A DNA stretch of 64,000 bases from positions 1,512,001-1,576,000 of the forward strand of contig JAMJFZ010002594.1 in the NCBI GenBank assembly GCA_026225945.1, written 5' to 3'. Each line of letters opens with the position of its first letter. The stretch's first letter is position 1. Below are positions 1 to 59,300 of the stretch, in pieces. The translations under genes were made by a program, and so were the position numbers. The DNA comes from Cricetomys ansorgei. Lineage: Eukaryota > Chordata > Mammalia > Rodentia > Nesomyidae. The notes below the pieces were generated by a model that had not been told where the DNA came from, searched no databases, and was given only the letters and a program-made list of their open reading frames with translations.

Positions 1-290
1 TGTGAGTGAGTGTATGAATGTGTGAGTGAGTGTGAGTGTATGAATGTGTGAGTGAGTGAATGAGTGTGAGTGTGAGTGAGTGTGTGAGTGTGCGTGAGTG
101 TGTGAATGAGAGTGTGAGTGTGTGTGTTTGTGTGAGTGTGAGTGTATGAATGTGTGAGTGAGTGAATGAGTGTGAGTGAGTGTGAGTGAGTGAGTGTATA
201 TGTGTGAGAATGTGAGTGTGAGTGAGTGGATGTATATGTGTGAGTGAGTGTGTGCTTGTGAGTGCTAGTGAGTGTGTGTGTGTTGGGGGG
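1..290. repeat. TGTGAG/TGAG-rich simple repeat
   Basis: A degenerate array of TGTGAGTGAG and TGTATGAATG units fills the left edge of the window. It lies in the Piwil3 intron downstream of coding exon 5. No coding exon is visible in it. Confidence 0.9.
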
Positions 291-306
291 ATCGAGTCTC
301 GCCTAC

Positions 307-428
307 CTTCTAAAGAGGATGTTGTAATAGCGAATCCAGTCTGGGTGGTCGGAGTGGAGTTCACTGGAGAGCTGGATCCTGATCTTTACTTTGCTACCAC
401 CTTCCAGCTCACTGAGCAACTCCATGTC
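307..428 (-). CDS. Piwil3: Piwil3 coding exon 5 (residues 455-494, N domain)
   Basis: 122 bp from acceptor gaaatgctag|GAC to donor AGAAG|gtaggc. It encodes [20 protein letters not shown] and then a segment ending [11 protein letters not shown], matching the PIWIL block that ends in YYNIxFRR. Two bases of the next Arg codon remain at the donor. The following exon, expected to begin the linker towards the PAZ domain, is outside the window to the left. Confidence 0.93.
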
Positions 429-3400
429 CTAGCATTTCAGACATAAGAAGATAGGTGCTGAGGGGTAGCTGTGGCGCTGGGGGGGTCTGGGGGACTTTGA
501 GGGGGGAGCTGTGGGGGGGGGTGGAGGCACTGGGGGGGACTGTGAGGGGGATGCTGTGAGAGGGCGATGGGGGCGCTGGGGGGAACTTTGGGGGGGGTGC
601 TGGGGACATAGCTCCATCGGTAAAGTACTTGCTGAGCAAGCATGAGGGCCCGAGTTCAGGTCCCAGCTCTGGCCTCCGTTATACACATACCCGCACACAC
701 ACAAGAGTACACCCACACCCACCCACCCTCCACCCTTTGAAGCAGATATTCTTCAAGAAGCCTGAATACCACTGAATGACAGACAGCCAACATGCCACCC
801 CACTCCCCACACCAAGGTGAACCATCTTCCCACAAAGCCCTGCGCACTTAGAAACGACGATTTATAGACATCAGGTACCATAACATCACATTTAAACTTT
901 TTCTTTTTTGCTTAAGCTCCTGGAAGCAATGGGTTTGGCCAACTAATATAAATCTGCAGCTGGAAAGAGATACTAAAAATCCATATGAAGAGAACAGTGT
1001 CTTACCCAAAACTTCTTTGAAGAAATTTAATGAAACAATAATTCGCATCAGTGTTTTGAGTGTGTACACCCTTGTGTGTTTACAGCTGTGTGTGCGCCTT
1101 GGGAGTGTGGGATGAAGTCCCTCACTGAGCCTGGGGGTCACACAGGCTGACCAGCAAGCCCCAGGGGTTGTCTTGTCCCTGCCTCCCCAGCTCCAAGCTC
1201 ACAGGCAGACACTGGACCCACCAGCTTCTTACGTGGGAGCTGGGGATTTGAACTCAGCCCCTACACTTGCACATCACTTTACGGGCCGAGTCAGCTTCTA
1301 GTTCCTCTATCGGCATCTTTGGCCTGTGTTGTGTCTAAGTTTCATTTAGCTTCTACTTAGGCCCTAAAAAAAGAGGGGAATTCTCCAAGACCCATGACAC
1401 TCAAGCTTGGGCGTCAGGATGTGGGATCAGCCCCGTGACAGAGGTCCTGGACACTGCTGTCCAGGAGATTCTTAGTGATTCCATTTCAAACGTTACTTAA
1501 CCGATTCCCGCAGCCTCTGGGGCAACAGCAGCGAGTTCCCATCAAATATACGGCACTTGCCGAGCTTCGACTGGTGTTTGAGCAGTAAGTTGGCGCGGAT
1601 GTTCATATCCTGTACGTCTGGCTGGTAGTTGATGTTGTACTTGTATGCGACTTCACAGCCCCGTTTCACTTCGTAATGGTTCGTCAGGAGTCTTATCTTG
1701 TTTCCTTCTGTCCCTACGAGGAAAGGCACATTGCTTTAGACAAGCGGGTCTCAACCTCCTTAATGCTGGGGCCCTGTAATCCAGCTCCTCACATTGCCGA
1801 CCCTCCCCCACAATATTTTCATTGCTACTTCCTAACTGTAATTTTGCTACTGTTACGAACTGTAACGTAAATGTCCGATGTGCAGATGGTCTCAGGCGAC
1901 CCCTGTGAAAAGGTTGTTTGGCCCCCAAAGGGGTCGTGACCCACAGGGTGAGAATTTATATAGCTGCTTTAGACACTACAGGTAGAAAAGCACACAGTCC
2001 ACCCAGATCTCTACAGCAGACCATCCCATCCGAGAGTGTTGTCGCTACCCCACAGCGTGTACACATGCCATGTGCTTGTCTGAGTGTGTGTGGGTGCGCA
2101 AGAGTGCATTCTGTGTATGCAAATGCAGGCATACATATGCCATGGAGCCATGGGAAGGGCGGGGATAACTGTGGGTATTGGTCCTGACCTGCTACATCTC
2201 CTTTGAAGCGGAATCTCTTGTGCACAGCAGTATATGCCCTGCTAGCTGACCGGAGAGCTTTGGGTAGCTTCTCCTGTCTCTACTTCCCATCTTGTGATAG
2301 GAGGGCTGGGATTGCAGACATATACGCACTGCGCCACACACTGCCGTTCACGGGCTCTAGGGATTTCGACTCAGGTCCTCACGCTTGCGCGGAGAGCATT
2401 TTGCCTACCCTGCGCCTCCTCTTTGGCTGTATGTAATACTAGTTATTTTCTTATTTTAAGTCAAAGGTTTTTGTTTTTTTCAACTAACAGTCTCATAGAA
2501 TTTCTTCCAGGTCAGCATACCTGTCTTTGACTCTTTAACGTGTTGCAAGTCCTTCCTGATGTTCACCACGAGGTCCTGGAAGATTCCACCTCGGTTCTCA
2601 CTCCGTCCCCTTGCTCCAGCTGTGAGGTAGCCCTCTGCACAGGAATAACACGAACAGTACAAAGACACAGCAGAAGGAGACGCTCAGTACACAGTGCTCA
2701 CTGCTCTTCTGGGAGACCCAGATTTGGTTCCCAGTATTGACATTGGACACCTAACAACTACCTAAACCTCCAGCTCCTGAGACCTGATGCTGGCCTCCTC
2801 AAACATCTGCACATACGTGCACATACCTACACATATACACGTTCTTAAAAAATAAAATTCTGCTTTGGTTTCTCAAGACTGATTTTCTGTGTATAGTCCT
2901 GCCTGCCCTAGAACTCACTCGGTAGACCAGGCTGACCTCGGACTCAGAGACCAGCCTGCCTCTGTCTGACTCTCCAGTGCTGGGACTAAAGGTGTGCAAA
3001 TCTTCTTAAAAATACGACAGATCGTGTTAACCCTCAGCTAGCAGCGAAGACAGTGCAGGCTGTCAAGGACAGAAGCTCTCCAGACTCTATCCCAACAACT
3101 CCCCAGCTTGCACGGCGGCTCACTGGGACGTTGGTCCCTGCTCCCATACGTGGCAATCATTCATTCCAGGAAAAGGTGATCCCGCAGCCTGGGCACCACA
3201 CTGCCCCCTCATGGACCCTGAACACGCCAACCACGTGTTTACAGCCAGGCTTCTCATACAGACAGACAGACCACTCTTTCTACACTCTAGGAAGTATATG
3301 CTTTTACATATTTATTCAACAAGGATCGGTCTAAGTAACAGTGCACGGTGGTGATCCATAAAAGAGTCGTTCTCCGTGAACGCTGAGCCCTGGGTGGCCA

Positions 3401-4338
3401 AGGGCGCCCACCACTTGAGCTATGTTGTAACCCACGTCGCCACTCCTCGAAGTGGAAGTCCTACCCTGTGCCCGAGTCGGTACTTGTACCGTAGGAGACA
3501 TTTCATATTTGAAATCTGGAATGGTTGTGTCAATGCGACAGGCCCCACATACCCTCTGCTCGGACTCCGCCTCGTGAGGCCGCAGGAAATAGCGCCGCCC
3601 GCTTCCCAAAGAATCAGCCCTGGACAGTGCCACGAGGTGATAAACACAGGGTCTATGATTTTATGGATCCAAATTTACACCCACATTTGATGGGATCTGG
3701 GCTTCTTATCTACTGATATTTTTCTCCCACTTCTTGTTTGGTTTTTGAGACAGGTTCCCTCCATGTAGCTCATGAATAGTCTTAAGTCTTTGATCCTCCT
3801 GCCTCAGGCTCCCAAGGGCTGAGATGGCAGGCTCAAGCCGTGGTGCCTGGCTCGTTTTTATTTCTTAACCTTTAAAATGTTAGCCAGGCATGGTGACACA
3901 GACCTCCGAACATGCATGGTGGTGGCGCACAGACACTCACATCCACGCAGACACACGCACGGCAACGGCGGGGCGTGGGAGGCAGCTCGGTTGGCAAAGT
4001 GTCTTGTGCAGAAGAAAGGCCTGAGCTCAGATCCACAGCACCTGTGTGAAAAGCTGTGCGAGGTGACACTCGCCTATAATCCCGGCGCTGGGAAGACGGA
4101 CACGGGGGAATCCCAGGGGCTTTCTGACCAGCCAGTCTAGGGCAAGCTCCCGCTTCAGTGAAAGACCTTGCCTTAAAAAGAAATTGCTAGAAAGTAGCCA
4201 ATATCAAACTCTGCCCCCCCCCCCCCGTGGGCAACACACACACACATGCACTCATGAATGCATGCACACACACACACACACACACGCACACACACGCACT
4301 CACGCACACATGCGCACAAACACGCACATATACACACG

Positions 4339-4390
<52 letters not shown>

Positions 4391-7300
4391 TGCACTCACG
4401 CTCACACACACACACGAAAAACAAACACAAATAGAAGATCGCAGCATCCCAAGGTATTTTGCTTTGAGAAGTAAAGCGGAGAACTGGTCTGGAGGTCGAC
4501 CACGAGCCACAGTGTTGGCGGGTGATAGCAGCAAAGGTCTCTGGCACCCTGTGACTCCCACGGCTGTCGCAGATACGCCACAGGGGGGAACCGCTGCAAC
4601 TGTGGCTGCCCCAGCTGTTTGGTGCCTCAGCTTAGGAAGAAGGAAGTGTTGTGAAAATTCTCTGCCTATTAGGGCATTGCATCTGCACAGGCTAGCCACA
4701 TCTAAGTTGCAAGAAGATGGCACTGACCGGCCTAACATGATGACAGCCATTTCTATTCCATTGGCTTCTAAGCTGTGAAGAGGGAGGGCGAGGAGGGTGG
4801 AGAAGGCCATCCCACACCCTGCCTTCCCTGTCCAGAAATGGCTGTCATTGAGGCCAACTCCATGCACGAGACGCCTGTCCCCATCCCACCTCTCTCACCT
4901 GGAAGCAGGCTTCTGCCCTCTGCTCTTCTAGATTCATCTGATGCAGCTGCTGGGCCTTTCTCCTGTGCTGGTGGGGCTCCAGGTTGCCCTGGCTGGGCCT
5001 CCAGCTGTGGCGGCTGGGTCTCCAGCTGTGGTGGCTGGGCTCTGTGTCCTGGTGGCAGGTCTCTGGGTCGCCGTAGCTGGGCCCCCAGCTGGGGTGGCTG
5101 GATCTCTGGTTGTGGTGGCTGGATCTCTGGCTGTGGCGGCTGGGCTCTGGGTTGCCCTGGCCAGGCTCCTGGCTGTGGCGGCTGGGCTCTGGGTTGCCCT
5201 GGCCAGGCTCCTGGCTGTGGCGGCTGGGCTCTGGGTTGCCCTGGCCAGGCTCCTGGCTGTGACGGCTGGGCTCTGGGTTGCCCTGGCCAGGCTCCTGGCT
5301 GTGGCGGCTGGGCTCTGGGTTGCCCTGGCCAGGCTCCTGGCTGTGGCGGCTGGGCTCTGGGTTGCCCTGGCCAGGCTCCTGGCTGTGGCGGCTGGGCTCT
5401 GGGTTGCCCTGGCCAGGCTCCTGGCTGTGGCGGCTGGGCTCTGGGTTGCCCTGGCCAGGCTCCTGGCTGTGGCGGCTGGGCTCTGGGTTGCCCTGGCCAG
5501 GCTCCTGGCTGTGGCGGCTGGGCTCTGGGTTGCCCTGGCCAGGCTCCTGGCTGTGGCGGCTGGGCTCTGGGTTGCCCTGGCCAGGCTCCTGGCTGTGGCG
5601 GCTGGGCTCTGGGTTGCCCTGGCCAGGCTCCTGGCTGTGGCGGCTGGGCTCTGGGTTGCCCTGGCCAGGCTCCTGGCTGTGGTGGCTGGGCCTCCAGCTG
5701 AGGTGGCTGGACCCTGGGTCCTGGTGGCCAGGCTCCTGACTCTGGCAACTCTGGTGGCTGGGCTCTGGGTTGCCCTGGCTGGGCCTCCAGCTGTGGTGAC
5801 TTGGCTCCCGACTGCGAATCCTCCCATCTTGAGGCCTACGAAACAGATATATGGAAAAGATTCCCTGTAGTCACTCCTCATCCAAAAGATATAATCAAAT
5901 CCTAACTTTCAAAACACTCACATTCTGGTGACAGGTCAATTTTAAAATAACCTAGGAACCTGGTATAGTGACAAACTGCCATACCAGTGTCCAGGAAGCA
6001 AAAGCATCCCAAGGTCAAGGTCAGCCAGGGCCCCAAAGTGAGACCCTCCCTCAGAAAGGCACACAGAGAAGCAGGAGCAGACTTACAACTGAAGAGTTAC
6101 AGGAAGGAAATGCAGTCAAGAAAAGGGTCTCGAAGGGTTGGGACACCGGACAGAGCCAGCAGACGTCTGGATGGTCTGCCTGGCGTGAGACAGTGCCGAA
6201 AGCTGCACTGGCTGATTTCACCATTAGAGTATCCCAGGGTGCAGGGGGTGTCGGGGGTGGGGGGGGGCTGGGCCAGGAAGAGAGCCCAGGAAAGGGTGGC
6301 TAGTGGGTGGCAATGATAGAGCAAGGGTTTTATCAAAGAGAGAAGTGCACAACACCACGCAACAGGGTCTCACGCAAGAGGTGTATTGGGGTGGGGTGTC
6401 TGCTTCCAAGTGGGGAAGAGGAGAGAAAACACAGCAGGGTGAGAGACCAGGAAGAGAAGAGGAGGGAGGGAGGGAGAGAGGGACAGGGGTGGGTGAGGGA
6501 GAGAGGGACAGGGAAAGAGGGAGAGGGAAAGAGAGAGAAAGAGAGAGAGAGAGAGGTAGAAGAGAAAGAGGAAGAGGGGCAGAGAGCAGACAGAGGCCAA
6601 AGAGGAGGAGCCTGAGCCCACCAGGATTATATGGGCCTGACCAGGCAGGACAGGTACCCGGCTCAGGAGGCGGTGCCTGGAGACAGAGTGGGCGTGTCAG
6701 GAATGTGGGGGATGGGCGAGCTCTAGAGAGGGAGCACTGGCCAGGTCACAGCACTCCTTGCCTCAGCAAGAGGGCAAATGCAGGGCCAGAGAAGCAGGCA
6801 GCCTGTGACTGGGATGGGGTGCGGGGTGCTGGCAGCTGGCTGAGGGCTCCACGGAGCCTGTGGGAACTAGAAGGTGAGGCGGAGAACCAGAGCGGCACAG
6901 CGGGCCTAGGGGAGACTGTTGAATGAGAACACGAACTCGGTATGCACACAGATGTGGGAAATTTTGCTTAGCAAAACCCCGCTGGCTGGGGGCCAGGGTG
7001 GGAATTGAACCAGGGGCATCTGGGCCAAGGGACTGCTGATGTGGGCCTTGGTGGAGGCGGTATTTGCTTTAGGGACTGCTGCCATGCTCCCAAGAAGACC
7101 CCACCAGCAGTCCTGTCTCTGTTTCACAACTTTACAAATGACAGGCGATGCCAGGACTTTCACAGGCAGTGAGGTAGCCCCTCTCTCGGCCTCGGGTTCC
7201 CCTAGAGGGTAGAGACCAGGGCGGGGGAAGCATTGATACTGGCTTCAGAGTCAGCTCTGAGCCAGGAGTCATGTCAGAGGCTGAAAATAAGGGCCAGGGA

Positions 7301-7522
7301 GGTTTGGGGAAGGGAGAGAGACCAGAAGGGACCAGACAGCAGAGCCTGGACGGTCAGGTAACATGGCAGCCCGCCGCCGACACCAGCAGCTGTGGCTGTT
7401 CACGGAGGCAAGCAGACTCAGGTTAAGAAATCAAGGCAGTTAAAACACTCTCCAGGGTCTCCAGGTTGAGAGCGCCAGCCTTTCCAGCCATCTTGATTTC
7501 CTGGCAACTAACTGTTACTGGG

Positions 7523-7566
<44 letters not shown>

Positions 7567-7713
7567 ACAACTTCCTTTAAGATAAATATCAAACATTACA
7601 GGACTGGCAGCAGCAGTAGCTCCAGGCGTCTCAGGTGGGGGAGACTGAGGAGGCTCAGGGGTGGCCAAGGGTTTTCTTTTGCCTCGTTTTCGAGATCTTC
7701 CCTTGCCTGGCAT
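307..7713 (-). CDS. Piwil3: Piwil3, 5' part of gene (five coding exons; 3' part outside window)
   Basis: PIWI-clade Argonaute protein, which binds piRNAs in germ cells. Golden hamster PIWIL3 is reported to be an oocyte piRNA effector. Five minus-strand exons join with GT/AG boundaries and consistent phases (114, 937, 99, 212 and 122 coding bases) into 494 codons plus two bases. Residues about 363-495 resemble human PIWIL3 closely, including FQDLVVN, a [12 protein letters not shown] block, IFDGNSLLL and RYYNILFR. The start [11 protein letters not shown] resembles the human PIWIL3 start. Between them lies an exon with a 13-copy repeat of 14 residues, which human PIWIL3 lacks. The PAZ, MID and PIWI domains lie left of the window. 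No stop or frameshift was seen, so the copy looks intact as far as it goes. Exons are listed separately. Confidence 0.9.
465..605 (+). repeat. G-rich degenerate tandem repeat
   Basis: Repeated runs of 4-9 G separated by CTGTG or AACTTTG-like spacers (for example around 515-545). It is intronic in Piwil3, 40-180 bp upstream of exon 5 in the transcript sense. On the plus strand it could form G-quadruplexes; in the Piwil3 RNA it is C-rich. Confidence 0.75.
606..712 (+). mobile_element. ID/B2-related SINE fragment
   Basis: A tRNA-derived head (GCTGGGGACATAGCTCCATC, then GGTAAAGTACTTGC) is followed by a 'cgagttcaggtccc' B-box-like stretch and a CA-rich tail, as in rodent ID/B2 SINEs. Confidence 0.6.
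1502..1713 (-). CDS. Piwil3: Piwil3 coding exon 4 (residues 384-454, start of N domain)
   Basis: 212 bp from acceptor cctcgtag|GG to donor GAATCG|gttaag. It encodes the conserved beginning of the Argonaute N domain: a [15 protein letters not shown] strand, a [11 protein letters not shown] segment and a [12 protein letters not shown] segment. These correspond to PIWIL family blocks such as the YxYxVxYxP region and IFDGNSLLL of human PIWIL3. It ends in phase 0, as expected for this family junction. The start is fixed by the split Gly codon shared with exon 3. Confidence 0.95.
1744..1955 (+). mobile_element. URR1-type hAT DNA transposon relic
   Basis: The left end reads gcgggtctcaacctcc and the right end ggggtcgtgacccacaggg. 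Between them is the diagnostic 'gatggtctcaggcgacccctgtgaaaggtt' type core. This is the non-autonomous rodent URR1 family. The copy sits in the Piwil3 intron just upstream of exon 4. Confidence 0.8.
2521..2619 (-). CDS. Piwil3: Piwil3 coding exon 3 (residues 351-383)
   Basis: 99 bp from acceptor ctcacag|CT to donor ACAG|gtatgc. It starts with the last two bases of codon 351 and ends with one base of codon 384. The translation, around [20 protein letters not shown], resembles human PIWIL3 (GGVFQDLVVNTRQD...), and the following [12 protein letters not shown] block is typical of PIWI proteins just before the N domain. The phase joins exactly to exon 2, creating Ala, and to exon 4, creating Gly. 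Confidence 0.93.
2655..2860 (+). mobile_element. B3/B2-like SINE
   Basis: A degenerate tRNA-like head (gacgctcagtacacagtgctcac...) leads to a 'tttggttcccag' box and a tail with cacatacgtgcacat and an A-rich end (aaaaaataaaa), as in B2/B3 SINEs. Confidence 0.6.
2861..3000 (-). mobile_element. B1 SINE, antisense
   Basis: It reads as the complement of B1: tttctcaagactgattttctgtg, agaactcactcggtagaccaggctg, then tgctgggactaaaggtgtgc. It is intronic in Piwil3, between exons 2 and 3. Confidence 0.75.
3738..3860 (-). mobile_element. B1-like SINE, antisense, diverged
   Basis: Visible B1-complement features are gtttttgagacaggttccct, ctcctgcctcaggctccc and tggtgcctggc. Confidence 0.55.
3960..4185 (+). 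mobile_element. B4-like (ID-B1 composite) SINE
   Basis: A tRNA-like head (ggcagctcggttggcaaagtg; gagctcagatccacagcacc) is followed by a B1-like part (cctataatcccggcgctggga) and the ending gtgaaagaccttgcctt. This structure is typical of B4-type composites. Confidence 0.6.
4206..4415 (+). repeat. Poly-C tract and CA microsatellite
   Basis: About 15 C residues (4207-4222) are followed by roughly 180 bp of CA repeats with CACG and CATG interruptions. It follows the SINE tail in the Piwil3 intron after the repeat-bearing exon. Confidence 0.95.
4899..5835 (-). CDS. Piwil3: Piwil3 coding exon 2, minisatellite-encoded N-terminal repeat region
   Basis: This 937-bp exon runs from an acceptor (tatatctgtttcgtag|G) to a strong donor (CCAG|gtgaga). 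It enters in phase 0 and leaves in phase 1, fitting exon 1 and exon 3. It encodes residues 39-350: a unique lead ([10 protein letters not shown]), degenerate repeats, 13 tandem copies of a 14-residue unit ([14 protein letters not shown]), shorter PQPEIQP-like units, then a unique tail ending RSLLP. The region is rich in Pro, Gln, Gly and Ala with one Trp and one Arg per unit, and is predicted to be disordered. The array has no stops in any frame, so openness alone proves little. The case rests on the unique flanks, splice sites, phase agreement and position between two recognisable Piwil3 exons. A cDNA would settle it. Confidence 0.8.
5145..5690 (-). repeat. 42-bp minisatellite, 13 copies, inside Piwil3 exon 2
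   Basis: Units of exactly 42 bp begin at 5145, 5187, 5229 and so on to 5649. The copies are nearly identical; the visible exception is near 5262, where CCA becomes TCA and changes Pro to Ser in one unit. Because 42 is a multiple of 3, gain or loss of units keeps the frame. Diverged partial units flank the array on both sides (about 4985-5140 and 5690-5800). High identity implies recent homogenisation, so copy number is probably variable. Confidence 0.95.
6435..6600 (+). repeat. Purine (GA) rich low-complexity tract
   Basis: GAGA/GGGA runs with almost no pyrimidines on the plus strand. It lies in the first Piwil3 intron (5836-7599). No open reading frame with recognisable homology is present. 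The surrounding 6330-6900 sequence resembles degraded rodent LTR material, but I could not assign it to a family. Confidence 0.8.
7519..7570 (+). repeat. (TC)n(AC)n microsatellite
   Basis: An alternating TC block runs straight into AC repeats. It is 30 bp downstream of the Piwil3 exon 1 donor in the transcript sense. Confidence 0.9.
7600..7713 (-). CDS. Piwil3: Piwil3 coding exon 1 (residues 1-38, start codon)
   Basis: The start is the ATG at 7713-7711, chosen because [14 protein letters not shown] aligns with the start of human PIWIL3 (MPGRART...). G at -3 gives a fair Kozak context. The exon then runs through a Pro/Thr/Ala-rich stretch to SP. The donor (CCT|gtaatg) leaves phase 0, matching the next exon. 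PIWI proteins usually begin with RG/RA dipeptides that are methylated and bound by Tudor proteins; here many positions are Lys instead, so the region is basic but poor in RG. The frame stays open upstream into a poly-A stretch, so the 5' UTR limits and any upstream non-coding exon cannot be fixed. Confidence 0.8.
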
Positions 7714-33800: not shown

Positions 33801-36800
33801 TGTGGTGAGTGTGAGCGGTGGCCACCGTGGTGGACGCGGGGGGGTGGGGGGGTGCCGGGGAGCGCGGGGGCGGGGCGGCTTCCCGGCAGCTGCAGCGGGG
33901 CAGGCGTACCTGCGAGCCAGCCCCTTGCATCACCACTTTAAGCTCTGTGACTCTGGAGTTATTTTGGGATCCCAGAGACTCTGCGGGAGGAAGCGGATTT
34001 GGAAATGGAGAGCTGTGGGAGAAGGGGTTGAGGACGCCTCCGTGTCCCGCTGAGGGACCAGCAGGGCTCGCTCCACACTGACTCATCCCTCTGAGGCACA
34101 GGGATGGTCTCAGCCCTCTCTGCCCCCCTCCCACCTCTGCGTATGCAGGTAAAGGATGGAGTAAATGAGGGCCAGGGTGCAGCTCAGTTGGTGGCGTGTT
34201 TGCCTCAAATGCAGCAAGCCCGTGACCCCAGCATCACAGGAAGCCAGGCATGGCGCACACGCCCATCACCCAGCACCAGTGATGGAGGCAGGAGGGTCAG
34301 AAACTCAAGTTCATCCTCAGCTACGTGTTGGTTCCAGGCCAGCCTGGGCTACAGAAGACCCTGTAACAGAAAATTGGGTGTGGGGGACAAACGTCCACTG
34401 GGGTGTCTTGAGTCTCACACGGAACACATGGGGCCCAGAAGGCTTGGGGCCCAGAGTGTGTCCGGCTCATGGTGGGTACCTGATTTGACGTGGGAACTCC
34501 TGTCTTTCTCCTTGCCTCACGGGGAAATGCACGGTGTAACCGTCCATCGCAGAGGGAGCGAGAGCAGGAACTCAGGCAGGAGCAGATGCAGAGGCCATGG
34601 AGGGGTGCTGCTCACTGGCTTGCTCATCATGGCTTGCTCAATCTGCTTTCTTATAGAACCCAGGACCACCAGCCAGGGATGGCCCCACCCACAATGGGCT
34701 GGCCCCTCCCCATCAATCCCTAACTAAGAAAACTTGGTGTTATGGAGGCATTTTCTCAATTGAGGTTCCCTTCTGTCAGATGAATGTAGTTTGTGTCAAG
34801 TTGACATGAAATCTAGATCAGTGGTTCTCAGCCTTCCTGACTCTGCTGCGACCCTTTAATACAGGTCCTCGTGCTGTGGTGACTCCACCATAGTTATCTT
34901 TGTTGCTACTTCATAACTGAAATGTTGCTACTGTTATGAATTGTAATGTAAGTACCTGATGTGCAGATGGTCTTAGGCGACCCTGTGAAAGGGTCATGTG
35001 ACCCCCAAATGGTTGAGACCCACAGGTTGAGAACCGCTGCTCTAGACAGAACACTGGTGATAGATGGTGATGGTGGTGATGGTGGTGATGATGGTGATGA
35101 TGATGATGGTGGTGATGGTGATGATGATGATGGTGGTGATGATGGTGATGATGATGATGGTGATGGTGATGATGGTGATGGTGGTGATGGTGATGGTGAT
35201 GATGATGATGATGGTGATGATGATGGTGATGATGGTGGTGGTGATGGTGATGGTGGTGATGATGATGGTGGTGATGATGGTGGTGATGGTGGTGGTGATG
35301 ATGATGGTGGTGATGGTGATGATGGTGATGATGATGGTGATGATGGTGGTGGTGATGATGATGGTGGTGATGGTGGTGATGGTGATGATGATGGTGATGA
35401 TGGTGGTGGTGATGGTGGTGATGGTGGTGATGATGATGATGGTGGTGATGGTGGTGATGGTGGTGATGATGATGGTGGTGATGATGGTGATGATGATGAT
35501 GGTGGTGATGGTGATGATGATGGTGATGATGGTGGTGGTGATGGTGGTGATGATGATGATGGTGATGATGGAGGTGATGATGATGGTGGTGATGGTGATG
35601 ATGATGGTGATGATGGTGGTGGTGATGGTGGTGATGGTGGTGATGATGATGATGGTGGTGATGGTGGTGATGGTGGTGATGATGATGGTGGTGATGATGG
35701 TGATGATGATGGTGGTGATGATGATGGTGATGGTGGTGGTGGTGGTGGTGGTGATGAGGATGGTGGCAATAATGACAAAGGCCACAGTTGGTAAACATGA
35801 TGATGCTGACAATGATGTCAATGATGGTGATGTATTGACTTCTCATGAGGTCAGCAGCCCTTCAGTCCAGTTTCCTCTCTCTTCTTGGCAGCAACAACAG
35901 CCAGCATTCATAAAGAGCTCTGTGTGCAGCTCTAAGAATGTCCCATGTGCTTTGTCAGTATCCTAACATCAACCTGATAGGTTACCACTCATTGGGGAAA
36001 CTGAGGCGGGGGTGGGGGGGAGTCACTGCCCACAGTCACGCAGCAGGCTGACAGAGGATGTGAGCAGAGATGGCCAACCTTGGGCCCCGCATGTGTTAAC
36101 CATGAATCTCTCGACAAGTGGACATGGATATGCTTTCTCTGTAGTGTTAGGTCACTCCTGGTGCTAGGTAGTGCGGACAAGCTACTGACCACGGTGTCCC
36201 CACAGCGGCTGTGGAGGCCTGTGTGCTGCACGGGCTGCGGCGGAGGGCTGCCGGCTTCCTAAGAAGCAACAAGATCGCGGCTCTCTTCATGAAGGTGGGC
36301 AAAGGCTTCCCTCCGGCCGAGGAGCTGAGCCGCAAGGTCCAGGATCTGGAGCAACTCATTGAGAGCACGTGAGTGTGGCGTGGGGCGCCGGCTGGGACGG
36401 CTCTGGAGGGCAGTGCGCCTTGCCCTCAGTCTGGTGGCAGCCCTCCCATCCCTTGCTCTTCTCTCCCTCTTGCTCTGCCTTCCTTTCTGCTCCTCAGACC
36501 CACCTGAGGGGTCTTTCCCACCCCAGGGCCTTGGCACATGCTCTGCTGTCTATTCTTGCCTGCCCAGCCCTGTGATGGGTTCTTACAGCGTCCCCCCACC
36601 CCCCACCCCAGCTCTCAGCCCGCTTCTGCCTTCTCTTCCCTCAGCCTGTTTCACTCCTGGTTTTCTTCCTGTGGTAATTACTCACTCGGTCCATCCCCGC
36701 TATGAACTAACCGTCTTGCTGCCTGACAACATGAGCTCAGGCAGCTGCAGCTCCAGCCTCTGGGCATGCTCTTCTGATGGCCGCGCCAGCCTAATAGCCA

Positions 36801-39800
36801 GCTCTGTGTAGGGGGCCAAGCTTGGAGATTATTAGCTCCCATTTGCAGTGACATCACATCTGCCTGCCTGTGGGTTCCTCCTATCCCCTGCTAAACTCCC
36901 AAGTTCCCGGATGTCCTCTAGGGACGGACTTCAGGCTCTTCCCAGTGTGGCTCAGCAGTCACTTGAGCAAGCCTACTGGGCACTCACTACCCAGCATGCA
37001 TTGTGCCTGGCTCTGGAGGTGTAGGGGCCACACTAGCCAGGAGGTAGACTTTCAGAGATTTTGTTTATTTTAGTTTAACAACACAGACGTGTGCCACCAC
37101 CTCCCGGTTTGAGATTTTATTTTTAAAAAGCGGCTTGCTCTGTGAAGGAAGGGCAAGAGAGAAGAGCAATCAGGTAGAGGGGCTTCAGCCGGTTGCAGGG
37201 GGTTCCTGTAGATGAATGGAAGGGGTCATCCCTGGGAGACCACCGGAGGGAGCCCTGAGGAACTGCACAGGAGAGCTTTGGGGAGAGCCGGACACATGGG
37301 AAGCTGACCGTGGCCAGCAGGACCGGGGAGCAGTCAGATGCGGGGTCGAGGGGGCCTCAAGGCCAGAGTCCACAGCTGCCCTGTCCTTGAAGGAACCAAA
37401 GATCTAAGCCTCCTGGCCAGCGTTGCTTTGTGGGAGGGGGCGGGAGGGGGGAGGAGAGGGAAGCAGAGAGGAAGAGGAAGGAGGGAGAGCAAAGACAGGT
37501 TGGCATCCCGCCTCCCTGCCAACAGAGCTCGCAGTGTCCAGCTCAGCCCTGGCCACTTTCTGCCATGTTTTACTCTCCTCCAGCCCCATCCTGGCCCCCA
37601 TCCCCCACCCTCACCCTCCACCCCCATCACCCACTCATCCCACCCCACACCCCCACCCCCACCCCCGGGAGCTTGTTCTGGGGATTCCTTCTTTCCTGAG
37701 TGTGTCCTCTCTCTCCTCCCGCCGATCTCAAAGGCGAAACCAGATCCAGGGCCTGCAGGAGAACGTGCGGAAGCTGCCGAAGCTACCCAACCTGTCCCCG
37801 CTGGCCATCAAGCACCTGTGGATCCGCACAGCCCTGTTCGAGAGGGTCCTGGACAAAATCGTCCACTACCTGGTGGAAAACAGCAGGTGAGAGTCACGCC
37901 TGCCGCGCTCTGCCGCCACCTGCTGGCCGTTCTGGGAACCGCATCCCTGGGAATAATGCTCTTTCTTTTTGGTGGGCAAAGCAAACAAATAAACAAAACA
38001 AAAAGGGTTTCAGATTAATCTCAGGTAAGGGTTTTATTATGTCAGACTTCTTGATCGGCATCCACCTGATAACCGTAGTTACCGGTTGGTCGTGAGTCAC
38101 CGTGTGGGAGCTGGGAATCGAACCCGGGTACTCTAAGAGCAGTAGGCACTTCACTGCAGGGCCATCCCTCCAGCCCATCTAATCTTTATAGCTACGTTAA
38201 TAGTTTTGTGTCCGTGAGTTTTCAAGGAACTAGAAATCGTCCCAGAATCTCTCATAAACAAGAGACTCCCCAAACCTTCATGAACACTGTATCGATGACA
38301 TCACACGCTTGCCAGGGTCAAACTGCAGAGGTTTGGGGTTTGGTGGTGTTTTGCTCAGCCTATGAGGCTGTCCTCTCTGCCGCTGAGGATCTGAGCTGGG
38401 CCTCCCGAGTGGAACGGAGCCCGCCCACGTGTGCCCTCTGCTGGTCCCCTGCAGACCCGCGTGTCGTTTCCTCCCACAGTAAGTACTATGAGAAGGATGC
38501 CCTCCTGATGGACCCCGTGGACGGCCCCATCCTGGCATCCTTGTTGGGTAAGTGGGCAGCTGCTCTGGGCCGCTGCTGGTCCTTTGCTCTTGGGGCTCAG
38601 AGGCCTGTCTCTTGCTCTGGTGTCTTCCTGCTGGACTCTGGGGCGTCCCTGCTTCCTGGAGGGAAAGGGGGTGACCTGAGCCCATTCTGAGGCAGTTGGG
38701 TGGGGGCGCTTTTGGGGACTCCAGGTTCCCAGCCCTGTGTGCTCCACAGTGGGGCCCTGTGCCCTGGAGTACACCAAGATGAAGACTGCGGACCACTTCT
38801 GGACCGACCCCTCGGCCGACGAGCTGGTCCAGAGACACCGGATCCACAGCTCGCATCTGAGACAAGACTCACCCACCAAGCGGCCGGCGCTCTGTGTGAG
38901 AAGACGGGGCCGTGGGAGGGACTTGGCCTCGGGGCAGAGAACTGAGTGGGAGTCCTGACGGTCACCCTGACCCTACCAGATCCAGAAGAGGCATTCCAGC
39001 GGCAGCATGGACGACCGACCATCCATTTCTGCCCGGGACTATGTGGAGTCCCTGCACCAGAACTCCAGGACCACCCTGCTCTACGGCAAGAACAACGTTC
39101 TGGTTCAGCCGGTGAGTGTGGGGTGGGCCTAGATCACGCTCTGTGGCTTGGTCACGGTGTGGGGGAGGGGAGGGCCTCCAGCTCCGGGTTCTCTGTCTGT
39201 TTACTCATCCATTCACCTACATATTCTTTGGGTGGGGGGTTCTAGACAGGGTTTCTCTGCTGTGGCTCTGGCTGGCCTGGAACTCACAGAGATCCGCCTG
39301 CCTCTGCCTCCTGAGTGCTGGGATTAAAAGCATGTGCCACCACCGCCTGGCTCACTCACTTATCCACCCACCCACATTCATATGTTTACCAACAACTCCA
39401 TCCATCCATCTGTCCATCGTCCATCTATCCATCCATTATCCATCCATCCATCCATCCACCCACTCATCCATCCATCCACCCATCCATCCATCCATCCACC
39501 CACCCATCAACCCATCCATCCACCCATCCATCAATCCATCCACCCACCCATCCATCCACCCATCATCCACCCACCCATCCATCCACCCATCCATCCATCC
39601 ATCCATCCATCCATCATCCACCCATCCATCCATCCATCCATCCACCCATCATCCACCCACCCATCCATCCACCCACCCATCCATCCACCCATCCATCCAT
39701 CCATCCATCCACCCATCCATCCATCCATCCACCCATCCATCCACCCATCCACACATCCACCCATCCACACATCCACCCATCCATCCACCCATCCATCCAC

Positions 39801-42800
39801 CCATCCATCCATCCATCCATCCATCCATCATCCACCCATCCATCCACCCATCCATCCATCCATCCATCCATCCATCCATCATCCACCCATCCATCCACCC
39901 ATCCATCCATCCATCCATCCACCCATCCATTCATCCATCCATCCATCCATCATCCACCCATCCATCCACCCATCCACACATCCACCCATCCATCCACCCA
40001 TCCATCCACCCATCCACCCATCCATCCATCCATCAATCCATCCATCCACCCATCCACCCACCCATCCACCCATCCACCCATCCACCCATCCACCCATCCA
40101 CCCATCCATCCACCCATCCATCCACCTATCCACTTATGCACATTTACATGCAGGTCACCCATCTACCCATCTATCCGTGTGCATTTGGTAATATCCTAGC
40201 TAGCTGCCCTGCCAGTCAATTCTTCCCTTCACTACACCCATCATTTGTGAATCTATTTGTGTTTATATTAACTTTCCATCCCACCCGGTTTTTCTCTTGG
40301 CGTGTTGACTCTTGCTGTCACTCAGCCAGCATTTACCCAGACACCATGTGTGGCAGAGGCATGCTTCTCTGTAGGAGCCCGTCTTCCTCACTGATACCTG
40401 GCTGGTGCTCACTGTGAAGCGCCTCGAGCCGCGCTAACTGTGAGATGGTGACGCTGACGCCTGCACGAGGAGCGGGATTAGGTCCGATCTCACGCCAGCC
40501 GCGGTGGTGAATCAGTTGTTCCGTGCTCCAGCAGCTGGCTGGGCATTGAGGCGTGAGCAGCCCTGTGAGGAATGTCCTTTGCTGTCCTCTCCTCGGGGGT
40601 CATCGGGTCACAGTCAGTGACTCACAGTGTGGCTCAGCTGGAAGGGGGCAGGGAGGGGTCTCTGTGATCAGAGCCTCAACCTCTGGGTGACCCTGAGCGG
40701 GCTTCTGCCATCTGGGCTATTACATCTGCATCAGAGTGGGTGCAGGGCCCATGTTTCTCAGATTTAGGAAGTCACCGGTTTAAGGTGCAGAAGCTTTCAA
40801 ATGACCATCTAGAAACTTCAAATGCTGAGGACTGGGATGTAGTCCAGGGGTAGAGGGCTTAGCATGCCCAAGGCACCATCCATAGCAGAGATGGAGATGG
40901 GGGTGGGGAGCGAATGGGAGGGGCAAGGGAGGGCGAGGGAGAGAGAATTTGAATCCTCAAGATATCGAAACACGGCCACGCCAGGCTTTGGTGGCAGAGA
41001 CAGTGGTTGCCATGAACCATATTTGGCTCACAAAGCCTACAGCGTCTCCTTTCAGTCCCTGGACACGAAAAGTGTGGTGACCTCTGACCCAGCAGTTCTG
41101 GAAAGTATGGAGTGTGCGCTGTCGTCTCCAACGTGGGTCTGAAGGCTCTTGGAGCACACCGTCCCTGCTTCCTGGGGGCTCAGGGGCTGTGTGACCTGGG
41201 GAGACCGAGTCACAGCTGCTCTGCCGTTCGAAGATGAATCACAGGCTCCGCTGTCGGGAGATGTTTAAAGCCACTCACATGTTCTTCCTGCAAAATAGCA
41301 GCCCTGCCCAGGCTCAGTCGAAGGGATGATTGACAGTGCTGACTGAGCCTGTGTGTGATCTACAGCGATGGCCACTTCCCAGCTGCGAGACACCGCGGGC
41401 GATCGGGCGAGCCCCAGTCAGGGATGAATGGGACGGACGCTCGGGAGTGGGGAGAACATTGTCAGAATAATGGGAAGTGGGTGAGAGTTCCCATGGGCAG
41501 ATTCTGGGCAGGTAGAGGGTCAGGCTGCCGGGCAGAAGCACGGTGTGGGTGTTGGGACAGAGGGTTTCTGGGTGTCTACAGCTACGGGATAGGGTGCAGG
41601 GATACCTGCCCTCTCTTTACCCCCTTAGATTGGCCAAGATACAGTAGCCATCTCCTTCACGGGGATCCAAAGGAACCTGGGGTGGAGACAGCCAGCCTCG
41701 GGAGGGAGGGATGAGGGTGCTGGTGCTGGGGTAAACCACTTTCACAGCTGGACTCCACCAAGCTCATCCTGGATGGGGTAGGGGAGGGCGCTGCAGGTGG
41801 CTTTGTTTGGCGTGGCGCCTGCGAGGATGCCGATGGGCTTCTAAGAGGTTGCGGCAAACAGCCCCATCCTCGGTCTGCCCCTGAGTCTCTGAGTCGGAGC
41901 CCCGACACTTGTCCACTGGAGTCCAGCAACATGGCCAGGCCTGTTCTCTCTCTGCAGAGGGACGACATGGAGGCTGTACCGGGGTACCTGTCTCTACACC
42001 AGACAGCTGACGTCATGACCTTGAAGTGGACACCCAACCAGCTGATGAACGGGTCTGTGGGGGATCTAGACTACGAGAAGAGGTAAGAGAACTTCACTTG
42101 AGTGCACCCGGAGTCCCTCTACTCTCCTAGCCACCCCCACCACGCTCCCTTCCCAGGGACAGGCAGCCCTGCCTGCCATTCTACCTGGTTATTATGGTTA
42201 CCTGGCCCAGCCTCCCACTGCTGTGGCTGCAAAAGGGACATTAGCCTCGGGAGCACCTGGAGGCAGAGCCGCAGAGCCTTGGGGACGAGCGTGGTCGGCT
42301 GCTCACATCTCTTAAGTCTACTCTCCCGGGCCAGTGAGCTGGCTCAGGGGGCAGAGCACCTGCTGCCAAGCCTGACAAGCTGCCTTCCATCTCTGGGACC
42401 CACCTGTTGGAAGGAGAGAAGTAACTCCTTCAGTTGGTCCTCTGATCTCCACTCACTCACCAGGGCACACAGCCACCCGTCCCTCCGACACAGATACACA
42501 CACAAAACAAACATGCAATTTAAAGGCTTTATGAATGTGCCCCCCAGACCTATCAGAGAGTACAGAGAGTAAACAGACAGCAGGTAAATGACAGCTCAGC
42601 CGAGCCCCGAGGACAAACCAGACTGAGTTAGGAACTGGCCCCGCCCCCGTCCCAGTCAGGTGACCTTGAGCAGTCACCTCCACACCCCCAGCCTCAGTTT
42701 CCTTATCTGTACTTCAGGGTGTAGGAGTGGAGCCCTGCAATGATGTGCAGGGGAGACCGGTGACCAGAAAAGGCACCGTGCCTGCTCGCCACCATCGAGG

Positions 42801-54800: not shown

Positions 54801-55994
54801 CATGGTTAATTACAGGTCCGTGCGGTATGGTATCTCTCTGTTACTGTAACACGTTCCCAGACTAGGAAGCTTATAGAGGAAAAAGGTTTACCCTGGCCCA
54901 CAGCCGGGCCTTCTGCTGTGGGCAGCACTGGACAGCACGGCAGGAAGGCACACTGTGGGCGGAGCCGCCGTCCCTCCCCTGAGACCTAAGACCGATGCGG
55001 GGCTCTGCCTTACAGAGGCCCCAGCAGCTTCCACTGGTGCCACGCTGGGGACCAACCATTGTCACAGACATTTGGGGGAACGTCCCAGAGACACAAGAGA
55101 CATGGCTTCACTCATCCACACTGGGGTCTCACCTCAGAGACAAGACTGCAGGCCCGCTGCCCCCTGATAGTGTTGACCCTCTGCCTTCTCCCCGACAGAC
55201 TTACCCGGAGCAGGAGCTGCTGAGGCTCATCTACTATGGGGGTGTCCAGCCCGAGATCCGCAGGGCTGTGTGGCCCTTCCTCCTGGGTCACTACCAGTTC
55301 GGGATGACGGAGACGGAGAGGAAGGAGGTTAGTCACCTGTGCGGGCAGTGGATGGAGTGGGGTGCTGTGGGCTGGGTACTGTGGAGCTGGGTACTGTGAG
55401 AATGGGTACTGTGACAGCACCTGGGTGCTGTGCACCCGGGTGCTGTGCTCCTGGGCGCTGTTGAGCCTGGACGCCTGTTGCAGTGTTGGTGAGAGACACA
55501 GGGAAGAGACAGGAACGTCAGGGAAGGCTCTGTGGTGGAAATGCGACACAAGGGAATTTTCAAATGAGTCGGCCTCCTGTTGTGTGTTTCATAAAGACGC
55601 CTGTGAATTTGTAGGGAGTGCTGCAGAGACCTGTGACCTTTACTTGGCTCCCCCATGCTGACCCCATGCTGACTCCATACTGACCCCCATGCCGACCCCC
55701 ATGCCGACCCCCATGTCGGACCCCATGCTGACCCCCATAGTGACCCCATGCTGACCCCCATGCCGACCCCCATAGTGACCCCATGCTGACCCCCATGCCG
55801 ACCCCCATAGTGACCCCATGCTGACCCCCAGCAGAACTGAGATGCCCTGGGACAACACAGCACTGATGCTGCTGGGTCAGCAACTACCTCACTAAGGCTC
55901 CTCCTACCTCCTGTGATTGCCTCCTGGGGTGTGTGTGTGTGTGTGTATGTGTGTGTGCACCCTAGGGTGTGTGTGTGTGTGTGTGTGTACCCAG

Positions 55995-56025
<31 letters not shown>

Positions 56026-56085
56026 CATGCACATGTGTGTGTGTCTGTATGCCTACTAGGGTGTGTGTGTCCATGTATTCACACT

Positions 56086-56124
<39 letters not shown>

Positions 56125-56164
56125 CCTGGGGTATGTGTGTGTGTGTGTGTGTGTGTGTACCCAG

Positions 56165-56198
<34 letters not shown>

Positions 56199-56257
56199 AT
56201 TCACATGTGTGTGTGTCTGTATGCCTACTAGGGTGTGTGTGTCCATGTATTCACACT

Positions 56258-56290
<33 letters not shown>

Positions 56291-56334
56291 ACCCTAGGGG
56301 GGGTGTGTGTGTGTGTGTGTGTGTGTACCCAGGG

Positions 56335-56366
<32 letters not shown>

Positions 56367-59300
56367 CCTGGGGTATGTGTGTGCATGTATACACACTGGG
56401 GTGTGTCTGTCCATGTATTCACACTGGTGTCTATGTATGTGTGTATATGCACACGTGTATGTGTATCCATGTATTCACACTGGGGTATGTGTGTGTGCGC
56501 GCGCGCACTGGAGTGTGTGCGTCCATGTATACACACTGGGGTATGTGTGTGTGCACACACTGGGGTGTGTGTGTGTGCACACTGGGGTTTGTGTGTGTGT
56601 GCACACTAGTTGTGTGTCCATGTATGCACACTGGGGTATGTGTGTGTGTTCATGTATTCACACTGGGGTATGTGTGCATGTGTGTGTGTGTGTGTGTGCA
56701 CACTTGGGTGTGTGTATCCATGTATTCACACTGGAGTGTGTGTGTCATGTATGCACACTGGGTGTGTGTGTTCATGTATTCACACTGGGGTGTGTGTGTG
56801 TGTGTGCACGCACACTGGGGTGTGTGTTTGTGTGTGTGCACACTTGGGTGTGTGTATCCATGTATTCACACTGGAGTGTGTGTGTCATGTATGCACACTG
56901 GGTGTGTGTGTTCATGTATTCACACTGGGGTATGTGTGTGTGTGTGTGCACGCACACTGGGGTGTGTGTGTGTGTGTGTGCACACTTGGGTGTGTGTATC
57001 CATGTATTCACACTGGAGTGTGTGTGTCATGTATGCACACTGGGTGTGTGTGTTCATGTATTCACACTGGGGTGTGTGTGTGTGTGTGTGTGTACGTGTA
57101 CGTGTACTTATTTCCCATGTCTGGGCCCTAACCTGTCCTTCCATAGCCTCACCTACCTCTACCTACCTGATCGCTAACCCCTGGACCCTACTCACCTGTC
57201 CTCCCTTTCCAGAACTTTCTTGTATCTAAGATGTTGTAGAAACAGAATCACGTATTACAGAAACTTTGGGAACTGACTTTTTCATTCAGCACAAATATCT
57301 AGATCCATCCAAGTGGTTCTATTATACCCATTTCCTTTTTGTGGCTGAAAAGCATCCCCTGCCTGCATAGACCACGGTTGCACTCTAAATTGGCTGATGG
57401 GAAGCTGGGCAGTGAATATTTATTTATTTACATTTTGGGGCTAAGAATAGCCACCTGCGACAGACCTCCAGCGCAGGGTTTGTGTGTGGGAGACATGCCT
57501 GGGAGTGAAATCACTGGGCCTTGTGGTGGAAGCAGCTTCAGTCTTGAAGAAAATGAGAAACTCTGGCAGTGACTGTCCCATCTGATACTGCCGCGGGCTG
57601 TCCGCGATGGCCCTCACCTGATGGATGGATGAGTGAGCGGGCAGACAGGAGAGCGGATCCGATGGCGACGTGGACAGGTGGTGGATAGCAGAATCTCGCT
57701 AGTCTTGTAACCTGTATGCCTAGCTTGATGCCTGGCACGCTGTGGGTACTAAGCAAGAGAAGCTAATGAGTCAAGGGATTAAATAATTAATAAATGCTAG
57801 AGGAAATAGAGAAATCGTGCGAACGAACAGTGAACGGATGTGTAAAAGGAGGAGGGACGGAAGGAGCGTGGGAGCCACGTCGCCTTGGTCCGTGAACGTG
57901 GCGAGGTCAGAGCCCGAGCATCCAGAGCGTCCTCGTGTGACCTTGCGCGTGTGCCGTCAGGTGGATGAGCAGATCCACGCCTGCTACGCGCAGACCATGT
58001 CGGAGTGGCTGGGCTGTGAGGCTATCGTGAGACAGAGGGAGAGGGAGTCCCACGCAGCTGCCCTGGCCAAGTGCTCTTCGGGGGCTAGCCTGGACAGCCA
58101 CCTTCACCGCATGCTGCACCGGGACTCTACCGTCAGCAACGAGGTAAGGGCCGGCCGGCCTGAGAGCCGAGCCTCGAGGCAGCCTCGCCCTTAGCTTCTT
58201 AGTGGGGAAGGGAACTTCAGAATGGTCTAGGTTCAGATTCCAACCAGAGTCTCCTGCCAGCACCCTCCCTCCGCACTCAGCTCCTGTGTCTGCACGATGG
58301 GCATGGTGTGCGTCCAGTCCTGAGAAAGAGTGTGTGTCAGCTTCCCAGAGCAGCATCTGCCCTTCATACATTCAACTAAAGCTTGTTGAATGCCTACTAT
58401 GTGCAAGTACTGTCAAGAATGTTCCAGTAGCTCAGGCAGACTCCTGCTCTCACAGACTTTAGCAGAACTGCCTAAAGCCAGCACGGCAGAGGCCTCACAG
58501 CGTGGGGAGGGGCAGGGGTTCACAGGACAGAACTGAACCTCGAGTCCCACCTGCTACTCTGGCTGGAGTAATACCAGCCTAGCTCTCACGTTCAGCAGAG
58601 AAGTTAAAAGTGGGGTGCTCTGGAGGCTGGGAGGTGGGGCCCGGAGACCAAGGTCATCTCTGCAGAAGCTCCAGGGAGCAGCCAGGAACCTGGGAGGGGA
58701 CTTGTCCCAGCCAGCAGAAGGGATGGAACCGGACTTCCTGGCTCCCAATCCGGCAGCGCCCTGTGTGACCTCCTGTCTCTGCCCCTCTGGTCCCTGCCTT
58801 TTCAGTCCTCCCAGAGCTGCAGCTCAGGCCGGCAGAACCTCCGACTGCAGAGCGACTCCAGCAGCAGCACACAGGTGACTCTCAGAGGCCCTGCACCCCA
58901 CCTACACCCCACCCCACCAGCAAAAAACCGCCCCACTCACGGCCCGCCCAAACCACACGAGCCCCGCCCCACTCATGCCCCGCCCCATCCACACGAGCCC
59001 CGTCCCACTCATGATCCACCCCATCCACATAAGTCCTGCCCCACTCATACCCCGCCCAATCCACACAAGCCCCGCCCCACTCATGCCCCGCCCAATCTAT
59101 ATGAGTCCCGCCCCACTCATGATCCACCCCATCTACACAAGCCCCGCCCTACTCATACCCCGCCCAATCCACACAAGCCCCGCCCCACTCATGCCCAGCC
59201 TAATCCACACAAGCCCCACCCTCCCACCTGGGGTTGAAGGGATTGGATGTCCATCATGAAGTCCACAGTGAAGGGATACAGTCCCTGAGGACCTCATCAT

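Follow-up and report, generated by a model that had tools for sequence, protein, structure and literature searches.

In the 64-kb stretch of DNA analysed here (the window), a minisatellite lies inside a 937-bp block of the minus strand that is very likely a coding exon of Piwil3, a gene whose product acts in gene silencing in egg cells. The exon is older than the repeat array itself, and the repeats in it would have been amplified in frame to give what is probably a basic linker that the protein tolerates. Such a repeat-built tail is already on record in PIWIL3 of the golden hamster, Mesocricetus auratus (PMC7969018), and the window adds a divergent second example. Compared with the published case, what is new, as judged from the DNA, is the location of the array in an apparently older exon and the contrast between its serine-poor product and the golden hamster unit.

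The window covers the first five coding exons only of the gene (minus strand, 1-7713), while the remainder of Piwil3, including the regions encoding the PAZ, MID and PIWI domains, lies beyond it. The predicted exons, in order of translation, are as follows.

e1: 7600..7713, minus strand, Piwil3 coding exon; ATG at 7713, end in phase 0, GT donor at 7599
e2: 4899..5835, minus strand, Piwil3 coding exon with the minisatellite, 937 bp; TAG acceptor, CAG/GTGAGA donor, open in the frame of its neighbours
e3: 2521..2634, minus strand, Piwil3 coding exon encoding FQDLVVN; 2634 slightly favoured over 2619 as its start, either being in frame
e4: 1502..1713, minus strand, Piwil3 coding exon; donor TCG/GTTAAG keeps the frame
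e5: 307..428, minus strand, Piwil3 coding exon (...RYYNILFR); joins in frame

The first exon, 114 nt long when counted from the ATG, encodes the basic N-terminus. The sequence 5' of e2 ends in ...CTGTTTCGTAG, and GTGAGAG follows directly at its 3' side; the exon is entered in phase 0 after e1, left in phase 1, and its product amounts to 312 residues plus one base. Joined in a single frame with GT/AG borders, e1 to e5 yield an N-part of 499 residues, 368 of which precede FQDLVVN. A GT at 1496 was ruled out as the donor of e4, since it breaks the frame. The original prediction had described a 937-bp minus-strand block with unique ends, AG/GT borders and 13 tandem 42-bp units, and all of these features were found again; the proposed entry in phase 0, exit in phase 1 and common frame across 7713-7600, e2 and the next exon were borne out by the joined translation. 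The downstream exon was originally begun at 2619, and here the frame held while the acceptor itself perhaps lies elsewhere. A start at 2634 makes e3 15 nt longer in the same frame, adding EGYLT, and the 20-nt stretch that leads up to the AG contains 70% pyrimidine for 2634 versus 50% for 2619. The longer reading aligned better to four of five homologues and equally well to the fifth, in a comparison where a longer query cannot score lower; set against random five-residue prefixes, the gain had a P of 0.066. The acceptor of e3 may possibly sit at 2634, 15 nt upstream of 2619.

An open reading frame alone is little proof of coding in such a sequence, since a base-shuffled 42-bp unit is open in the chosen frame in 93% of cases and in all three frames in 79%, and since e2 is open in both frame 0 and frame 1. 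For the flanks of the array within e2 (391 nt), the chance of being open is about 9%. The weight of the coding assignment comes from its two neighbours, e1 with the ATG and e3 with FQDLVVN, which both demand frame 0, and from homology. Further weight is added by the agreement of this architecture with the cloned cDNA of a relative, the golden hamster. The minus-strand segment 5835-4899 thus appears to be a real coding exon of the Piwil3 orthologue, from which a transcript and a protein are predicted.

The identity of the gene was confirmed by a similarity search with residues 310-494 of the N-part, whose best matches were the PIWIL3 proteins of Myodes, Phodopus and Nannospalax (E 9e-55 to 6e-52 for these top three, with 62-67% identity over 72-86%). 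The search returned 22 matches, including one named piwi-like 1 (P0012) and one without a name (P0004). A candidate Piwi_N domain (PF23278) in the N-part scored an E of 7.4e-6 and 26.5 bits, slightly below the curated cut-off of 27. In a tree of e3 to e5 the window sequence grouped with muroids on a long branch with a support of 0.999, although the rows of Sigmodon and Chionomys were misaligned in this tree because their models are without the FQDLVVN exon. Upon removal of these two, support was 1.000 for muroids, 0.875 for the window sequence with voles, and 0.072 for the node joining Phodopus. The Piwil3 orthologue is thus that of a muroid rodent, probably a cricetid, the last of these supports being too low to point to a subfamily. 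After the tail, 2 of 36 otherwise invariant columns are changed in the window, the range over 13 species being 0-3 in a count that left out Sigmodon, Chionomys and two near-identical voles. Decay of the exons following the tail was therefore ruled out, as this number lies within the range of the other species.

The tail is long by the standards of the family. Of 28 non-muroid mammal models fetched, 26 contain FQDLVVN, which is preceded by 72-105 residues in 17 of them and by 26, 28, 29, 70, 107, 110, 135, 199 and 217 residues in the remaining nine. The original prediction had put the excess at about 260 residues; by the joined translation it comes to roughly 270 relative to macaque PIWIL3 (P0015), with 368 residues before FQDLVVN in the window versus 96 in macaque.

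Within e2, three segments of repetitive sequence can be distinguished.

Upstream flank: 5674..5799, minus strand, degenerate 21-bp repeats on the 5' side of the core; self-match at lag 21 of 0.475, measured on 5835-5674
Array core: 5128..5673, minus strand, 13 in-register 42-bp units, 12 identical and one with a single C>T change (P>S)
Downstream flank: 4981..5127, minus strand, degenerate 21-bp repeats on the 3' side of the core; self-match at lag 21 of 0.558, measured on 5127-4899

At lags 18-20 and 22-24 the self-match of the flanks is 0.20-0.33. With periods of 84 and 126, TRF gave a 99% match over 5127-5691 at a score of 1116; with a period of 42 bp it reported 4990-5710, at 17.2 copies and 90% match. 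The 42-bp unit is a dimer of two diverged 21-bp repeats, each encoding seven residues. The divergence of the two halves and the degenerate 21-bp repeats on both sides suggest that the core arose by recent amplification of a dimer within an older heptad repeat. The encoded tail contains 29% proline and 17% glutamine and has a net charge of +17. The 182 residues of the core include 13 arginines, 13 evenly spaced tryptophans, a single serine and no aspartate or glutamate, with the motifs GAWPG and PRAQ each occurring once in every 14 residues. Pairwise differences at codon positions 1, 2 and 3 numbered 146, 227 and 221 among the 13 of 16 distinct 21-bp repeats that were similar enough to a reference, and 330, 416 and 418 among all 16. 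Third-position differences do not appreciably exceed those at the second position, and the 21-bp repeats thus bear no sign of residue preservation. Elsewhere in the 64-kb window, blastn (E up to 0.01) found just one 16-bp match to e2. Other long tandem arrays reported by TRF in the window lie at 35055-35765, 39397-40132, 55929-57088 and 58928-59221 (36-bp array).

Sequences related to e2 were found in PIWIL3 models of several other mammals. The muroid set comprised 11 models from 9 species, two species being represented twice and one model being partial with only 5 comparable residues. The models of Chionomys nivalis (P0028; z 14.7 in frame 1 and 3.7 in frame 0) and Sigmodon hispidus (P0043; z 9.6 and 0.3) contain arrays homologous to that of the window, and the Myodes model (P0001; z 6.5 and 0.9) contains the 3' end of e2. 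The other eight models had no match to e2 (z at most 1.6), and not one of the 11 scored best in frame 0. As in the window, the PIWIL3 N-part of the Chionomys and Sigmodon models includes 14-residue units, with additional longer units in Sigmodon; unlike the window, these models are in frame 1 and without the FQDLVVN exon. The use of frame 1 in all three models is probably an annotation error, since the FQDLVVN exon is missing from those of Chionomys and Sigmodon and translation in that of Myodes seems to continue past the donor.

Outside muroids, the models of Marmota (P0031) and Callospermophilus (P0037) can be jointly encoded by one DNA in frames 0 and 1 over 41 codons (the maximum in 200 shuffles being 12), which suggests that the e2 exon has been annotated in two frames in squirrels too. 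The same procedure gave 14 for two lemur models versus a shuffle maximum of 12, and failed for Marmota and Sciurus (9 versus 14). Upon comparison of the 3' end of e2 with 19 mammal models, a z of at least 2.5 was obtained in frame 0 for P0016 (lemurs, 2.8), P0020 (mouse lemur, 2.9) and P0037 (Callospermophilus, 2.5), and in frame 1 for P0001 (6.5), P0037 (5.4), P0006 (2.7) and P0028 (2.6). None of the 19 models reached this value in frame 2, and the rest, including horse, rhinoceros and most primates, gave no signal. From these comparisons the e2 exon is common to squirrels and probably to lemurs. The idea that e2 is a new exon created by the repeat was rejected, as the squirrel models carry the exon without the array. 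The presence of the exon in squirrels without the array suggests that the exon is the older of the two and that the array represents an expansion within it. As automatic gene models drop or misread e2, caution is needed in PIWIL3 annotation.

According to Ishino et al. 2021 (PMC7969018), the Piwil3 cDNA of the golden hamster encodes a long N-terminal extension in which the unit QLQSPGAGPPRSGA occurs 14 times. In that work 5' RACE was performed, an antibody was raised to residues 20-260, which include the repeats, and PIWIL3 was found as a 130-kDa protein, in agreement with the mass calculated with the extension. Female golden hamsters that lack PIWIL3 are subfertile (PMC10465502). The window resembles this published case in having a long extension before the conserved PIWI part and a 14-residue (42-nt) unit, present in 14 copies there and 13 in the window. 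The units differ in sequence, being identical at 6 of 14 residues at the best rotation, and in serine content, with two serines per golden hamster unit (28 over 14 units), one of them before proline (QSPGAG), and only one in the whole window core. The golden hamster tail is backed by both cDNA and protein, whereas that of the window is predicted from the DNA. Three words of the golden hamster unit were sought in the six frames of the window and none was found, which suggests that the window array is that of a relative and not the same array. At the DNA level the two units agreed best in frame 0, at 32 of 42 bases versus 27 and 26, with a weak shuffle P of 0.08; by residues no frame was significant (P 0.12, 0.06 and 0.61). 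The golden hamster antibody peptide gave no match above shuffles in the three frames of e2, and two words from the peptide antigen used against PIWIL3 in PMC10465502 were likewise missing from the window; this peptide may sit outside the window or across a junction. In literature searches of a collection with few subscription papers, none of the papers listed dealt with a PIWIL3 repeat tail in a rodent other than the golden hamster.

The features of e2 are best explained if a 21-bp repeat encoding proline and glutamine inside the pre-existing PIWIL3 exon gave rise to the 42-bp dimer, and if slippage, unequal exchange or gene conversion then amplified this dimer in frame to 13 near-identical copies. 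The encoded protein would thereby gain a positively charged spacer of about 270 residues, rich in proline, glutamine and arginine and very probably disordered, which would separate the basic N-terminal docking segment from the folded PIWI body. Its role would most likely be that of a length-variable, sequence-tolerant linker in which the frame is kept but the exact residues are not. A tolerated linker is favoured because the repeat residues have no sign of preservation while the exons after the tail are normally constrained. A general survey of long internal exons likewise reports that indels fall mostly in structure-less regions, half of them arising through tandem repeats (PMC12457776).

Rather than being such a linker, the tail could be a multivalent platform for binding or modification, acting through phosphorylation in the golden hamster and through arginine or tryptophan contacts in the window animal. 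In MII oocytes of the golden hamster the PIWIL3 band shifts by about 40 kDa, a shift reversed by phosphatase, and the dephosphorylated protein is free of piRNA, phosphorylation being needed to hold the 19-nt piRNAs (PMC7969018). The two serines of the published unit, one preceding proline, and the regular row of 13 tryptophans with 13 arginines in the window core also fit a platform; however, the text of PMC7969018 considered here does not assign the phosphorylation sites to the repeats, the window array offers one serine in 182 residues, and the 21-bp repeats bear no sign of constraint at the residue level, so that this explanation is an unlikely one. It is highly improbable that the N-tail of cricetid PIWIL3 is a fast-turnover array whose chemistry is reinvented in each lineage by minisatellite homogenisation, as a serine-proline phospho-array in the golden hamster and a nearly serine-free one in the window. 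GW/WG hooks bind the tryptophan pockets of Argonaute proteins, and if the tail were so reinvented, the 13 regular tryptophans in their small-residue context could act like such hooks, docking in cis or in trans on PIWI, and stage control of piRNA loading through phosphorylation of the tail would be peculiar to the golden hamster. With a similar build but almost no phosphorylatable residues in its repeats, the window PIWIL3 is chiefly valuable as a natural experiment: if the repeats carry the MII phosphorylation, the PIWIL3 of the window animal should lack the MII shift, whereas a shift and piRNA loading at metaphase II in this animal would mean that the repeats do not act as the switch.

Other alternatives concern the reading of the array itself. 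The frame 1 scores of the Chionomys, Sigmodon and Myodes models exceed those of frame 0, and frame 1 is open alongside frame 0 through the window e2, as would be expected if frame 1 were coding in some cricetids and the same array gave different peptides in different species. This is scarcely probable, as in the window frame 0 alone joins both e1 and e3, the FQDLVVN exon is absent from the first two models, that of Myodes begins within e2 and apparently runs past its donor, and the two-frame encoding in Marmota and Callospermophilus shows that annotation makes such frame switches. Near-identical arrays are of the kind that assemblers collapse or expand, and with 12 of the 13 units identical the copy number in the assembly may be wrong. 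That the array length is an artefact, the true number being much smaller or larger, is nevertheless very unlikely, given the single variant unit and unique flanks that anchor the order, and the 14 units of the golden hamster cDNA. It is also quite unlikely that most transcripts splice out or bypass the minisatellite and that PIWIL3 starts downstream, as several vole models suggest. In seven of the 11 muroid models the tail is 28-41 residues long and has no e2 match, one partial model begins beyond e2, and PIWIL3 transcripts were reported absent in Chinese hamster oocytes (PMC10964541); were the window from that species, e2 might seldom or never be translated. Against a bypass, cDNA from golden hamster ovary includes the repeats and the 130-kDa protein fits the tail-inclusive mass (PMC7969018), and e2 of the window has a CAG/GTGAGA donor and a phase that fits both neighbours. 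Regarding the Chinese hamster, a 2026 review of the same published data states that a 20-nt peak would correspond to PIWIL3 piRNAs (PMC13399003), and the two sources thus disagree on PIWIL3-type short piRNAs in its oocytes.

With the tail taken as a tolerated linker, the segment that it would separate from the PIWI body is the N-terminus encoded by e1. In cattle, the PIWIL3 N-terminus (GRARVHARG) binds TDRKH, and joint change of R4 and R10 prevents binding (PMC7349845). The N-terminus of the window (7672-7713) has lysine at position 4 and arginine at position 10; the bovine R4/R10 pair is thus not matched, and TDRKH docking may be altered. Further arginines are present at positions 6, 8 and 13, and these might compensate for Lys4.

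Tandem repeats of other kinds are present in dog PIWIL3 and in a PIWIL3-like protein of the leopard. A tandem-repeat peptide, CRHLEPQRHLEPQRHLEPQR, was used for an antibody to dog PIWIL3 (PMC10964541); it would be located in the N-tail, and both its unit length and its sequence are other than those of the window. The leopard protein P0036 has seven PPPPGAA copies close behind its start GRARTRARG, hence probably in e1, and 199 residues before FQDLVVN. The dog and leopard repeats would represent events independent of the window array. The leopard protein is named piwi-like protein 1, and with its PIWIL3-like start GRARTRARG it is possibly a misnamed PIWIL3.
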